Source: Polyangiaceae bacterium (lineage in GTDB: Bacteria > Myxococcota_A > Polyangia > Polyangiales > Polyangiaceae). Taken from it: a stretch of 64,000 bases of DNA. The stretch is from assembly GCA_019637295.1 (NCBI GenBank), contig JAHBVX010000017.1, positions 1 through 64,000 of the forward strand, in the 5' to 3' direction. Positions 29,973 through 40,062 of this stretch are shown here, piece by piece. How positions within the stretch are numbered: the first letter of the stretch is position 1; every line of letters starts with the position of its first letter. Made by a program: the position numbers and the translations under genes. The notes under the pieces are model-generated. The model was not told the origin of the DNA. It worked only from the letters and a program-made list of their open reading frames with translations, and did not search any database.

Positions 29973-30650
29973 GTGAGCAGCCTCGGTTGCGGCGCGCTCG
30001 GCGGCCTCCTCGCCCTCGGCTGCGGGACCGACGAGCCCTGGGGCGCCGCCGCCCCGGATGCCGCCGGACCTCCGCCGGCCTGTGACGCGCCAGACACGGT
30101 GTGTCCAGCGTCGCTGCCTCACGTCGGTGGTCCCTGCGCCGTACCGGAGCGCTGTGACTACGAACGCTGGGCTTTCGAGTGTCACGCCGGTCACTGGGTC
30201 GCCTTCTGCGGCGCGAGCGGGGTCGAGTGCGTTCCCACCCTGGCCGAGTCGTGCAGCCCCGTCGACGCCGAGCCCCGAGCCGGTGGTCGCGTCGAGGTGG
30301 GTCCCGGCAGCGCCGCTCCGTTCCGCCCGTTCGCCGAGGGGGAGCTCATCAGCCTCACCTGGGGCGCTCAAGGTGCGCCCATGATCCCGTACCGGCTCCG
30401 GGTCGTGCACCCCGAGCCACCGAGCTGTGCGCGGGTCACCGCGCGCATCGAGGTGGGTACGGTCACCGCGCCCGAGACGGTGTCGAACGTCCGTATGCGC
30501 TGTGGCGAGTCCCTGCTCGTTCATGAGATCTTTCCAGGTGAGCTCGCGTCTTGCTCGCCAGAGCCGCTCGATGTCTGGCTCACTGTCGCCGTTGCCGGGG
30601 TCGCCGAGCAGCGGCGGCGACTGAAGGTGCCCTGGTTCGACTGCGAGTGA
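29973..30650 (+). CDS. Cys-rich lipoprotein, unknown function
   Basis: This 225-residue protein has a lipobox (LLALGC), a short Ala/Pro linker and an N-terminal Cys-rich domain (CDAPDTVCPASLP, CAVPERCDYERW, ECHAGHWVAFC). A beta-rich C-terminal half begins near residue 90 (GRVEVGPGSAAPFRPFAEG). Even cysteine spacing suggests disulfides in the periplasm or on the surface. The GTG at 29973 lies 29 bp after the HdrDE-like stop, so they may share a transcript. It matches no family I know. Confidence 0.6.
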   Translation: MSSLGCGALGGLLALGCGTDEPWGAAAPDAAGPPPACDAPDTVCPASLPHVGGPCAVPERCDYERWAFECHAGHWVAFCGASGVECVPTLAESCSPVDAEPRAGGRVEVGPGSAAPFRPFAEGELISLTWGAQGAPMIPYRLRVVHPEPPSCARVTARIEVGTVTAPETVSNVRMRCGESLLVHEIFPGELASCSPEPLDVWLTVAVAGVAEQRRRLKVPWFDCE

Positions 30651-30666: not shown

Positions 30667-30738
30667 CTACCGGTTCACGGCTGCCTGCAGCCGTTCCAGC
30701 GCTGCCACGTCCGCCAGATCTTGCGGGCGCGCAGACGC
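30667..30738 (-). pseudogene. C-terminal stump of a nucleotidyltransferase-like gene
   Basis: The last 20 codons of a minus-strand gene survive: RPQDLADVAALERLQAAV, Asn-Arg and a TAG. A (G)RPQDLAD-ALE ending is common at the C-terminus of DUF6036/AbiEii-like nucleotidyltransferase proteins. Immediately upstream (from 30739) the sequence becomes the G-rich repeat array, so the rest of the gene has been replaced. This marks an insertion or deletion junction. Confidence 0.5.
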
Positions 30739-30740
30739 GC

Positions 30741-30850
30741 GTGGGCGTGGGCGTGGGCGGGTTGCGATGGCGTGGGCGGGTTGCGATGGCGTGGGCGGGT
30801 TGCGTGGGCGTGGGCGTGGGCGGGTTGCGTGGGCGTGGGCGGGTTGCGAT
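30741..30850. repeat. G-rich direct-repeat array, left of the four-helix-bundle gene
   Basis: There are five copies of GTGGGCGGGTTGCG, separated by GATGGC or by extra GTGGGC units. The same unit recurs in the same orientation at 31401-31486. The plus strand is very rich in G triplets, so quadruplexes are possible. The array abuts the broken gene at 30667-30738. Confidence 0.9.
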
Positions 30851-30882
30851 CGCTGCGGGCTTTCGATCGTACCGGCTTGCTC

Positions 30883-30977
30883 GGCGCCGTCCAGGCCGGG
30901 GCGGTGCTCGCCATGCTCGCCTTCGCCTGCGCGTGGCTGCGCGCCGTGCGCGCTTCGCGCGCAGCCTGGACGGCGCC
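30883..30977 (+). other. Large nested inverted-repeat structure
   Basis: GGCGCCGTCCAGGC (30883-30896) is the perfect reverse complement of 30964-30977. Inside, GGCTGCGCGC (30935-30944) pairs with 30957-30966. As RNA this would make a strong branched hairpin about 70 nt before the four-helix-bundle start codon. It has no good reading frame of its own. It may be a leader that controls the gene, or the end structure of a mobile cassette. Confidence 0.6.
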
Positions 30978-31045
30978 TGCGCGAGCCTGGTGGCGACTGG
31001 ATGCCGCCGCGCACTGGGCGAGGGCGGCTCACGAGGAGTGTCACG

Positions 31046-31378
31046 ATGTTGCGAATCTATCCGGTGTTGTTGGAGTTGATCCGAGAAGTGATGCCGCTGG
31101 TGCGGGAGCTCGAGCGACGGGAGCCGGATCTCGCGCGGCAGTGTCGGCGGGCGTTGGCGAGCGCGCCTCTCAATGTCGCGGAGGGGAGTCAGTCGCGAGG
31201 GCGGAACCGGGGCGCGCGTTACGCGAACGCGACGGGGTCGTTGCGCGAGGCGTTGGCGTGCTTCGAGGTGGCCGAGGTCATGGGCTACTTGCCCGCGCTG
31301 TCGGCGGAGCGGGTCGCGGCGTTCAATCGCGTGCTCGGCACGCTGGTGCGCGTCACCCAGGGGCCGCCGCGACGCTGA
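31046..31378 (+). CDS. Four-helix-bundle (S23/IVP-like) protein
   Basis: This 110-residue all-helical protein has the family pattern: a first long helix (PVLLELIREVMPLVRELE), then CRRALASAPLNVAEGSQSRG with the invariant N-V-A-E-G, then ATGSLREALACFEVAEVMG. Relatives are encoded in 23S rRNA intervening sequences (S23) and beside diversity-generating retroelements (Avd). They bind nucleic acid or partner proteins, and most have no known role. There is no rRNA or reverse transcriptase here. GAGGAG 8 nt before the ATG at 31046 fixes the start; the frame stays open through the left repeats, but that part is low-complexity. It is flanked by direct G-rich arrays. Confidence 0.8.
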   Translation: MLRIYPVLLELIREVMPLVRELERREPDLARQCRRALASAPLNVAEGSQSRGRNRGARYANATGSLREALACFEVAEVMGYLPALSAERVAAFNRVLGTLVRVTQGPPRR

Positions 31379-31400
31379 CGCGGCGCGCGCGAGGGGGGGC

Positions 31401-31486
31401 GTGGGCGGGTTGCGTGGGCGTGGGCGTGTCGCGATGGCGTGGGCGGGTTGCGTGGGCGTGGGCGGGTTGCGTGGGCGTGGGCGGGT
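31401..31486. repeat. G-rich direct-repeat array, right of the four-helix-bundle gene
   Basis: There are three copies of GTGGGCGGGTTGCG, plus one variant (GTGGGCGTGTCGCG) and one truncated copy, in the same orientation as the array at 30741-30850. The array begins 22 bp after the gene's stop. Confidence 0.88.
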
Positions 31487-31533
31487 CACCTTGGGTCACG
31501 GCGTCTGGCGACGACCCACCTTGGGTCACGGCG
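31487..31533. repeat. Pair of 17-bp direct repeats with small dyads
   Basis: CACCTTGGGTCACGGCG occurs at 31487-31503 and again at 31517-31533. In the second copy the flanking GACCCA makes a small hairpin with TGGGTC. The pair joins the right G-rich array to the next gene's promoter region. Confidence 0.7.
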
Positions 31534-31602: not shown

Positions 31603-31866
31603 ATGGCCCTCTCCTCTCCCGAGTCTCGCGCCCCCATGATCTCGGAGCCGCAGCCGGAGGAGCCTTCCGAGCTTGGTGAGCGGCAGTTCGTCTGCGACGC
31701 GTGCGGCGAAGCCTTCGCCGGAGTGCCCGGTGGGGCGGGTCTGTTCATCTGGACGCGTGGCGACGAGGTCCGCTTCGAGGAGCCTCCCTTGTGCGAGGGG
31801 TGCGCCGAGCGCGTGGCGCTGGGCGCGCTCATCAAGTGGTCTGGAGAGACCGAAGAAGAAGGTTGA
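31603..31866 (+). CDS. Small zinc-ribbon protein, unknown function
   Basis: This 87-residue soluble protein has two CxxC knuckles, FVCDACGEAFAG and LCEGCAERVA, about 35 residues apart. That is the layout of a zinc ribbon. Between them is WTRGDEVRFEEPP, and the ends are acidic. It has no signal peptide, so it should be cytoplasmic. Zinc ribbons of this size usually bind nucleic acid or protein, but nothing here tells which. It faces the convergent 31870 gene across 3 bp. Confidence 0.65.
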   Translation: MALSSPESRAPMISEPQPEEPSELGERQFVCDACGEAFAGVPGGAGLFIWTRGDEVRFEEPPLCEGCAERVALGALIKWSGETEEEG

Positions 31867-37987: not shown

Positions 37988-40062
37988 GCGAACAGCACGA
38001 GCTCGACGACGAAGCCCCGCCGGACATCCCCGACATTTCGTCGGATCCGGCGCCGCCACGCGTCGACGAGCCTGCGGATGACGAGCCGGATCCCTACGAC
38101 ATCGAGGTGGAGCAGGACGAGATTGACATCACTCGCGACGAGATCGACGTCCAGGTGAGCGGGAGCGACGCCGCGCCGCCGCCTCCACCACTTGCCCTCG
38201 AGTCCCCCGGTGCGTCGCCGGACGAGGACGACGACGACGCGGAGGTGATCGAGCCGGAGCCGATGAGTGACGCGCCGGCGGCGCTGGCAGCGAAGTCTGC
38301 CAACGAGGAGGCGCCCGGCTCGAGCATCCGGCCGCCGCCGAGCGCCGATCCGATCGAGGTGCCCACCGCGGAGGCGCTCGCACCACCGCGCCCACCGAGC
38401 CTCGACCCGCCTGTCCGCGCCGGATCGGAGCCGCCGCGCGCCGGGTCGGAGCCGCCGCGCGCCAAGTCGGAGCCGCCACGCGCCAAGTCGGAGCCGCCAC
38501 GCGCCAGCGCGGGCTCCGTGCCGCCGCGTCCCGTGTCTGCGCCGCCGCGTCCGGCTTATGTCCCGCCCGAGCTGCCGCGCCCGCCCTCGATTTCCCCCCG
38601 GCGGACGGAGGAGTCCCCTTGGCCCCCGCTGACCAACGACGCGCCGCCCCAGGAGTCCAGCGCGGCTCCGCGAACGGAGCCCGCGAAGGAGCCGCCGCCC
38701 AGCGAGGCGGCGACGTCTTACCCGCCGCCGCCCATGGCACGTCCTGCCTTTGCCGACTCGGACGAACCGCCTCGCAGTGTGGTCAAGGCCGCGCGCATGA
38801 TCAAGGCGCGTCCGGCGGCGGACGCCCCGGAGGCTCGCGCGTCGCTCGCACGCGAGGCAGAGCAGGACGCACCGGTGTTCTTCGAAGACGAGCCCACACC
38901 CGTCAGCCCGCCCCCCCCACGAACGGCACCTGCGGCGATGCCCTCGGCGACGGAGGAGCTCACGGAAGAAGACATCGCGACGGATGGCGAGCGCCGGTCC
39001 GTGTCTTCGGCCGAGGAGCTGACCGACGACGACATCGCTCCCGAGTCGGACGAGGAAATCGTCGTCGACACGGAGGACGAACCGCCCCCCACCGCTCCCG
39101 CGGACAGCAGCCAGCCAGCGGCAGCTGAGTCGGCGGCAGCGCAGCCCTTGGCGCCGGACGGCGCGGTGGTCTCGGAAGCCGGCGGTCCCAAGCCGCCCCC
39201 TCCGCCCCGGCGCAGCGCGTTCGACGATGCTCGCAAGGCGGCACAGCAGAAGGCGGATGCACGGCGCTTGGCGGATGAAGCACGGCGGGCCGCAGGGGAG
39301 GATCCGTCTCGCCGCGGGCGTCGAGCGTGGTGGGAGGAGATCTTCGGAGAGGACTACGCGCGCGCGGCGGACGTACTCTCGGAGCCCCAGATTGCGCGCG
39401 AAGTGGACTTCATCGAGGAGTCACTGGGCGTGGCCAAGGGGGGCGTGGTGCTCGATTTGGCGTGTGGCGCGGGTCATCACGCCGTCGAGCTCGCCGCCCG
39501 CGGCTATGGCGTAGTGGGCTACGATCTATCTCTCTACCAGCTCGCGCTCGCCGCGGACGTCGCGCAGCAGCAGAGCCAGAAGCTCAATCTCTTGCAGGGC
39601 GACATGCGCGAGATGGCGTTCGAGGAGATGTTCGACGGCGTTTTCTGCTGGAACACGAGCTTCGGGTACTTCGAAGAAGAGAAGAATGCGAACGTCGCGC
39701 AGCGCGTCTTCCGTGCCTTGCGTCCCGGCGGCATGTTCTTGCTCGACGTCGTCAACCGCGACTTCGTTGCCGAACACCAGCCCAGTCAGACCTGGTTCGA
39801 GGGTGACGCCTGCGTATGCATGGACGACATGAACGTGGACTTCATCACGAGTCGAATGCGCGTGAAGCGCTCACTGATCCTCGACGACGGCCGCAGCATG
39901 GAGTGCGCCTTCTCGGTTCGACTGTACGGCTTGCACGAGCTCGGCAAGCTGCTGCACGACGTGGGTTTCCGCGTGACGGAGGCCAGCGGACACCCGTCCA
40001 CGCCCGGCGTCTTCTTCGGCGCCACCTCCCCGCGCATCATCATCTTGGCGCAGCGCCCGTAG
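37984..40062 (+). CDS. Methyltransferase with long disordered acidic/proline-rich N-terminus
   Basis: This 692-residue protein is in two parts. Residues 1 to about 430 are Pro/Glu/Asp-rich with no fold, including tandem SEPPRA units and two EELTxxDIA motifs. Residues from about 440 are a class I methyltransferase: VLDLACGAGHHAVELAARG (motif I), VGYDLSLYQLALAA, NLLQGDMREMAFEEMFDGVF and ALRPGGMFLLDVVNRD. The coupling to psd (ATGA) raises the idea of phosphatidylethanolamine N-methylation or a related lipid role, but the domain is generic and no lipid-specific motif is seen. The long tail could bind partners or tether it. The start is firm from the overlap. Confidence 0.75.
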   Translation: MSEQHELDDEAPPDIPDISSDPAPPRVDEPADDEPDPYDIEVEQDEIDITRDEIDVQVSGSDAAPPPPPLALESPGASPDEDDDDAEVIEPEPMSDAPAALAAKSANEEAPGSSIRPPPSADPIEVPTAEALAPPRPPSLDPPVRAGSEPPRAGSEPPRAKSEPPRAKSEPPRASAGSVPPRPVSAPPRPAYVPPELPRPPSISPRRTEESPWPPLTNDAPPQESSAAPRTEPAKEPPPSEAATSYPPPPMARPAFADSDEPPRSVVKAARMIKARPAADAPEARASLAREAEQDAPVFFEDEPTPVSPPPPRTAPAAMPSATEELTEEDIATDGERRSVSSAEELTDDDIAPESDEEIVVDTEDEPPPTAPADSSQPAAAESAAAQPLAPDGAVVSEAGGPKPPPPPRRSAFDDARKAAQQKADARRLADEARRAAGEDPSRRGRRAWWEEIFGEDYARAADVLSEPQIAREVDFIEESLGVAKGGVVLDLACGAGHHAVELAARGYGVVGYDLSLYQLALAADVAQQQSQKLNLLQGDMREMAFEEMFDGVFCWNTSFGYFEEEKNANVAQRVFRALRPGGMFLLDVVNRDFVAEHQPSQTWFEGDACVCMDDMNVDFITSRMRVKRSLILDDGRSMECAFSVRLYGLHELGKLLHDVGFRVTEASGHPSTPGVFFGATSPRIIILAQRP
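38417..38505. repeat. Tandem 21-bp coding repeat in the disordered region
   Basis: About four 21-bp units encode successive A-(G/K)-S-E-P-P-R heptapeptides. The copies differ by a few bases. Such tracts change length by slippage, and this one can do so without breaking the frame. Confidence 0.7.

Follow-up and report, generated by a model that had tools for sequence, protein, structure and literature searches.

The feature described here lies in a 64,000-nucleotide stretch of a Polyangiaceae genome (the window) and is probably one copy of a dispersed and, we think, mobile element in which a tandem array of short units is followed by a conserved hairpin, an S23-like gene and, at some loci, a second array. 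We are confident of the underlying distribution: a multicopy unit of conserved layout occurs at unrelated sites and is missing from the syntenic sites of relatives. Such units form a large natural set in which an S23 gene is paired with one conserved hairpin, and they thereby offer a concrete candidate ligand for the S23 proteins, a family that has been familiar for decades through rRNA intervening sequences. Should the unit prove mobile, no catalogued enzyme would account for its movement. A separate question is what sets the same 6-nt register at both ends of one unit, in some cases in opposite orientation, in the matched, locus-specific hexamer arrays. We found no published description of the unit in a literature search of open-licence papers.

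Parts of the window copy and its S23-like gene

Both arrays were called by TRF (30739-30850 and 31394-31486). Five left and three to five right copies of GTGGGCGGGTTGCG had been read in the initial annotation; the left count is exact (30753, 30772, 30791, 30816 and 30835), and on the right there are exactly three copies (31401, 31439 and 31458) and one further degenerate copy, GTGGGCGTGTCGCG. A search of both strands of the whole window found no GTGGGCGGGTTGCG outside the two arrays. The 14-bp perfect inverted repeat reported upstream of the gene was recovered as the inner stem of a longer hairpin, of which the window copy forms 23 of 25 consensus pairs. The unit sits between protein ORFs, and the window contains neither an rRNA match nor an Rfam family at gathering score.

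Table 1. Features of the unit in the window
Feature	Position	Strand	Description	Basis
Left (5') tandem array	30739..30848	+	6- and 7-nt units GTGGGC, GGGTTGC, GATGGC	TRF and exact unit positions
Short core leader, array to hairpin	30849..30870	+		Own-copy comparison
Conserved hairpin	30871..30990	+		Covariation; model R1, 92.1 bits; check without pairing preselection
Hairpin outer stem	30871-30882/30979-30990	+		
Hairpin inner stem	30883-30896/30964-30977	+	14-bp perfect inverted repeat	
Conserved segments	between hairpin stems		[GT]TGCTCG and CTGCGC	
Spacer	30991..31045	+	Ribosome-binding-like GAGGAGTG	Sequence
Predicted S23/Avd-like four-helix-bundle protein gene	31046..31378	+	110 aa	PF05635, TIGR02436, AlphaFold2
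Short 3' core tail	31379..31396	+	Common to most own copies	Own-copy comparison
Right (3') tandem array	31397..31486	+	Units as in left array, direct orientation	TRF

A neighbouring gene had been thought to be cut at the left array. We did not find this: ORF 29973-30650 (225 aa, matching no Pfam or NCBIfam family) has its own stop codon, and what enters the array is a 23-codon minus-strand tail (stop at 30667-30669) with no credible Pfam match (best E 0.063, below the cut-off) and no convincing relative among the fetched loci. Just beyond the right array, at 31487-31533, CACCTTGGGTCACGGCG occurs twice as direct 17-bp copies; CCCAAGGTGGGTCGTCG or GACGACCCACCTTGGGTC, which resemble it, lie near the C12 copy (L004) and near a gene-less array (L135). 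A 21-bp tandem repeat of 3.9 copies is present at 38425-38506.

Judged by its profile matches, the protein is a member of the S23/23S_rRNA_IVP family, as initially annotated, with scores above both curated cut-offs: 37.6 bits against PF05635 (cut-off 33.8) and 38.4 bits against TIGR02436 (cut-off 24). No other family matched the gene in profile searches, PADLOC and PHROGs gave none, and plasmid searches with two of the S23-like proteins returned no match. The AlphaFold2 model (mean pLDDT 93.9) has four helices. Its closest solved folds are 2GSC (Foldseek E 8.6e-4, TM 0.79), which is also the protein's sole sequence relative in the PDB, 2RLD and Avd 4DWL (E 0.059, TM 0.68); the predicted structure is thus a four-helix bundle of the S23/Avd kind. 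At the codon level, dN/dS values of 0.08-0.31 for the 15 pairs among six full-length own copies show that the gene is under purifying selection.

Copies at unrelated sites and element-free sites in relatives

The window's own genome (7.65 Mb in 25 contigs) contains 11 S23 homologues: seven at ≥90% identity, three at 47-49% and one at 35%. A PF05635 search found 11 as well, nine of them above the cut-off. The seven close copies have the gene and the hairpin in common in otherwise unrelated flanks, and every one carries the same upstream hairpin. Scoring 150 of the 25494 first-look candidates with the hairpin model R1 gave seven matches of 89-100 bits, each just upstream of an S23 gene, together with two partial matches in one such locus and two weak matches elsewhere. 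TRF arrays lie upstream of nine of the 11 own copies (one has 7-nt units; two copies lack an array), and a clear short-unit array lies downstream of five; among 153 control tiles of 1150 bp from the same genome, 24 contained any TRF array of period ≤50. Between the end of the upstream array and the ATG lie 196-201 nt in five of the seven close copies; in the other two the array ends at -285 and -328. The 16-mer GCGTGGGCGGGTTGCG occurs 18 times in the genome, compared with 0 for a reversed control, and 15 of these occurrences are at three S23 loci. The remaining three fall at two sites where no S23 gene was detected (L134, 2460-2630; L135, 2369-2630), whose arrays are possibly remnants of lost elements. 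At L010, an own S23 copy is interrupted from position 1701; the sequence after it resembles, by eye, a transposase ORF.

Beyond this genome, we detected the S23 gene at E 1e-4 in 112 of 183 genomes of the order, often in many copies, with 26 candidates scored per genome so that the counts per genome are lower bounds. A scan of genome contigs with a single sequence recovered one locus. Under stricter filters, 26 of the 377 genomes of the phylum gave a match to model R1, three of these 26 lying outside the order. Twenty-eight R1 loci were fetched; an S23 ORF or partial ORF lies directly downstream in 21, two stop at a contig end and five have no S23 ORF within the flank. L257 has the hairpin and arrays on both sides without a gene, L248 retains a remnant resembling the C-terminal end of an S23 gene, and L259 and L260 reach R1 scores of only 43-44 bits. 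L096 in genome G083 contains five S23 ORFs in a tandem cluster with arrays in between.

We compared the window site with 11 stretches of relatives. None contained an S23 ORF or anything matching the arrays, the hairpin or the gene. In eight, the small gene at 31603 comes immediately after the upstream iron-sulphur gene; the other three match on one side only, or to a farther gene. The left end of the window unit is not fixed, because the relatives lack ORF 29973-30650 there as well. Orthologous presence or absence could not be read from the fetched g43 loci alone, which mostly have only the unit in common, and that approach was rejected.

A second comparison used five sites in genome G148, with both flanks searched in five relatives of its genus and regions taken for four. 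Three sites gave tight syntenic junctions without the unit: L286 against G147 (9 bp against 3.5 kb), L287 against G149 and G151 (9 bp against 4.25 kb) and L288 against G149 (168 bp against 1.9 kb). Further relatives have different DNA in place, and for the L103 and L099 sites no relative had both flanks together. Across all the relatives' stretches, 0 of 16 contained an S23 ORF. The G148 insertions (1.9-4.3 kb) comprise more DNA than the element alone, and their precision is not established, because the insert ends coincide with gene ends, where intergenic DNA differs anyway; no target-site duplication could be defined at these junctions. The initial annotation had named two outcomes that would count against a mobile or domesticated cassette, namely other S23 genes without these arrays together with a random occurrence of the arrays, or no empty site in relatives. 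Upstream arrays at most of the own homologues and the existence of element-free sites go the other way. Many copies, differing flanks and the accompanying hairpin also bear out the cassette; nothing in these results points to domestication.

The hairpin and the terminal arrays

An alignment of 36 hairpins with 25 pairs each had 94.1% of its cells paired, with 19 of the 25 pairs changed on both sides in this partly preselected set, and its covariation score was 0.527, compared with 0.105 for shuffled and 0.059-0.102 for slid alignments. These figures are inflated, since a complementarity filter had already reduced 84 genes to 43 rows, from which the 36 were drawn. As a check, we repeated the comparison without preselection for pairing, placing the arms by sequence anchors alone, which were present at 52 of 78 genes. 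The arms of a locus paired with each other at 0.81, and at 0.58 when swapped between loci. For the 17 loci outside the alignment the values were 0.69 and 0.51, with 10 of the 17 pairing at ≥0.8 as against 4.8% of swaps. Thus, the hairpin covaries strongly in the preselected set and gives a weaker but clear signal without preselection. Some of the 26 genes without anchors still match R1; the others may carry a diverged hairpin or none.

The form of the hairpin bears on whether it works as DNA or as RNA. The 43 elements examined yielded 69 distinct hairpins with stems of ≥5. Loops of 3 nt occur in 46 of them, and 32 of these 46 read C-TNC-G along the gene strand and hence C-GNA-G along its complement. 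No hairpin of the 69 has a loop of the reverse orientation or a UNCG or GNRA tetraloop. A 580-kb control with 5368 hairpins contained 32 C-TNC-G and 23 C-GNA-G loops. In DNA, GNA triloops have unusual stability. With one fixed T-G column set aside, G-T accounts for 5 and A-C for 13 of 864 cells, G-T being 0.6% of the standard pairs; in an RNA control of seven tRNAs, G-U made up 5 of 152 pairs. Loop and pairing counts are not independent of one another, coming from elements of common ancestry, and 5 versus 13 are small numbers. We somewhat favour single-stranded DNA over sense RNA on these patterns. The hairpin may also act as an antisense RNA.

The sense-RNA account would make the hairpin a structured 5' leader of the S23 mRNA, with the protein binding it and autoregulating, or would have the unit mobilized as RNA by a reverse transcriptase (RT) acting in trans, in the manner of a diversity-generating retroelement (DGR). 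Consistent with this account, the hairpin is on the gene strand between array and gene in the loci read, the predicted fold matches Avd and the DGR ribonucleoprotein, and all four element-bearing genomes tested have RT matches (3, 14, 11 and 5). Against it stand the C-TNC-G triloops and the failure of G-T pairs to outnumber A-C, and the RTs are of mixed type (three above the group II cut-off, two nearest retrons and two weak), with none noted beside the unit. We regard the sense-RNA account as rather doubtful, and the mixture of types led us to reject one common RT as the mover.

We mapped the arrays with a strict scan, which does not detect the window's own mixed 6/7-nt arrays. Period 6 covered 43% of the bases 200-400 nt upstream of the gene and 0 to 16% of the other bins (16% just downstream, 13% at 600-800 nt downstream), and periods 5, 7 and 8 reached 2.6% at most. 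Strict period-6 arrays were present within 600 nt upstream of 55 of 76 genes, compared with 28 of 5000 random windows; a looser scan gave 59 of 71 genes, compared with 81 of 2000 random windows, and found downstream arrays at 26 of the 71. Coding status was dropped as a means of telling element arrays from control arrays, and the difference in rate alone was used: stop-free frames of ≥372 codons span 7 of 7 strict arrays of the 580-kb control and 30 of 55 element arrays as well.

The commonest unit differs between loci, taking 29 forms across 59 arrays. At the 20 loci with two arrays, the ends nevertheless resemble each other (mean likeness 0.67; 0 of 10000 permutations equalled it), in direct orientation at eight loci, inverted at seven and neither at five. 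The inverted pairs rule out insertion into a pre-existing array as a general account, since it cannot explain all loci. Possible quadruplexes at both ends had also been suggested; a four-run G3 motif on either strand is present in only 29 of the 59 upstream arrays, and we rejected a general quadruplex role.

A passive origin would explain the GC-rich arrays as slippage products, the spread as array recombination or carriage in larger islands, and the S23 gene as a host function. The extra DNA in the G148 insertions, the five tandem copies in G083 and the two own-genome arrays without a detected gene all agree with it. We consider it quite unlikely given that the own copies have only the unit in common and no larger flanks, that covariation maintains the hairpin and that end arrays are sometimes mutually inverted. 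A contingency locus, in which the S23 gene is switched by phase variation of the upstream hexamer array, would suit the near-fixed array distance in most close own copies and is very improbable, in view of the downstream arrays with matching units and of L257, which has hairpin and arrays without a gene.

Proposed mechanism and comparison with known elements

We propose that the ligand of the S23-like protein is the unit's hairpin in single-stranded DNA form, with the complement of the gene strand the likeliest, and that the protein would carry it to a new site as an oligomer; its solved relative is a pentamer. Action of the protein on the hairpin or the arrays was already supposed in the initial annotation. 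Cutting and joining would fall to a host or other enzyme, because no nuclease, recombinase or polymerase domain is recognized in the S23-like protein. The matched end arrays would arise or lengthen, during insertion or repair, through slippage or fold-back copying. Writing of arrays at insertion would account for units that vary from locus to locus but agree, directly or inverted, at the two ends of one element. The genomes compared yielded no movement event, target-site duplication or mobilizing enzyme. We judge this whole reading, of an S23 oligomer that binds the hairpin as single-stranded DNA, of host or other enzymes that move it and of arrays written at insertion, to have an even chance of being correct. 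A bolder version, which we think unlikely, is a transposase-free class of element in which an S23/Avd-type oligomer captures hairpin DNA in single-stranded form, host enzymes insert it and the insertion writes new locus-specific hexamer arrays at the two ends, by a telomere-like synthesis of terminal repeats within a bacterial chromosome.

Among the nearest described systems are the S23 intervening sequences (IVS) of 23S rRNA genes, for example in Coxiella burnetii. The passages of PMC4990558 that deal with them describe the IVS as selfish and state that S23 proteins have no known function. Like the unit, an IVS is a small element with one S23 four-helix ORF and a strong complementary sequence, and short tandem repeats upstream of the ORF are described for it too. 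It differs in its location within 23S rRNA, in ends that pair around the ORF and in its removal from the RNA by RNase III (PMC4990558). The unit, by contrast, lies between protein genes, has its hairpin upstream of the ORF and carries end arrays. We rejected an IVS as the identity of the window unit, which is outside 23S rRNA and has direct arrays; inverted arrays occur in only 7 of 20 two-array loci.

REP/BIME sequences are dispersed hairpins with a conserved bulge, tied to one gene, that of the RAYT (Y1) transposase. The hairpins of the unit are likewise dispersed, bulged at a conserved place and tied to a single gene, but that gene is not a Y1 transposase, and few gene-less hairpins appeared among the candidates scored. 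Y1_Tnp matched once in G000 and not at all in G148, G083 and G181, the other element-bearing genomes searched, and the G000 protein scored 36.7 against REP_Tyr_transpos (cut-off 80). With no family-threshold match in three of the four genomes, RAYT/Y1 acting in trans was rejected as the mover.

Avd of DGRs works with a structured nucleic acid and an RT, and the window protein has the same predicted fold (PDB 4DWL, 8UB7). No adjacent RT and no template or variable repeats were seen at the unit; inspection by eye of the ORFs at 27-36 kb of the window showed no DGR-type RT. MITEs and other non-autonomous transposons are small and multicopy. So is the unit, and L257 is a gene-less hairpin with arrays, but the gene is usually intact and neither terminal inverted repeats nor a target duplication are defined. 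We also rejected a DNA transposon with transposase, terminal inverted repeats and target duplication, the gene having matched no family but S23 and no target duplication being definable. Since none of the known kinds that we compared fits, we take the unit to be a new kind of element and infer its movement.

Five loci (L108, L121, L132, L154 and L165) contain a convergent, tail-to-tail pair of S23 genes of different subfamilies. Downstream of several units in G148 and G152 (L100, L105 and L240) lies a common block of ~0.8-0.9 kb, part of which resembles, by eye, a sigma-factor gene.
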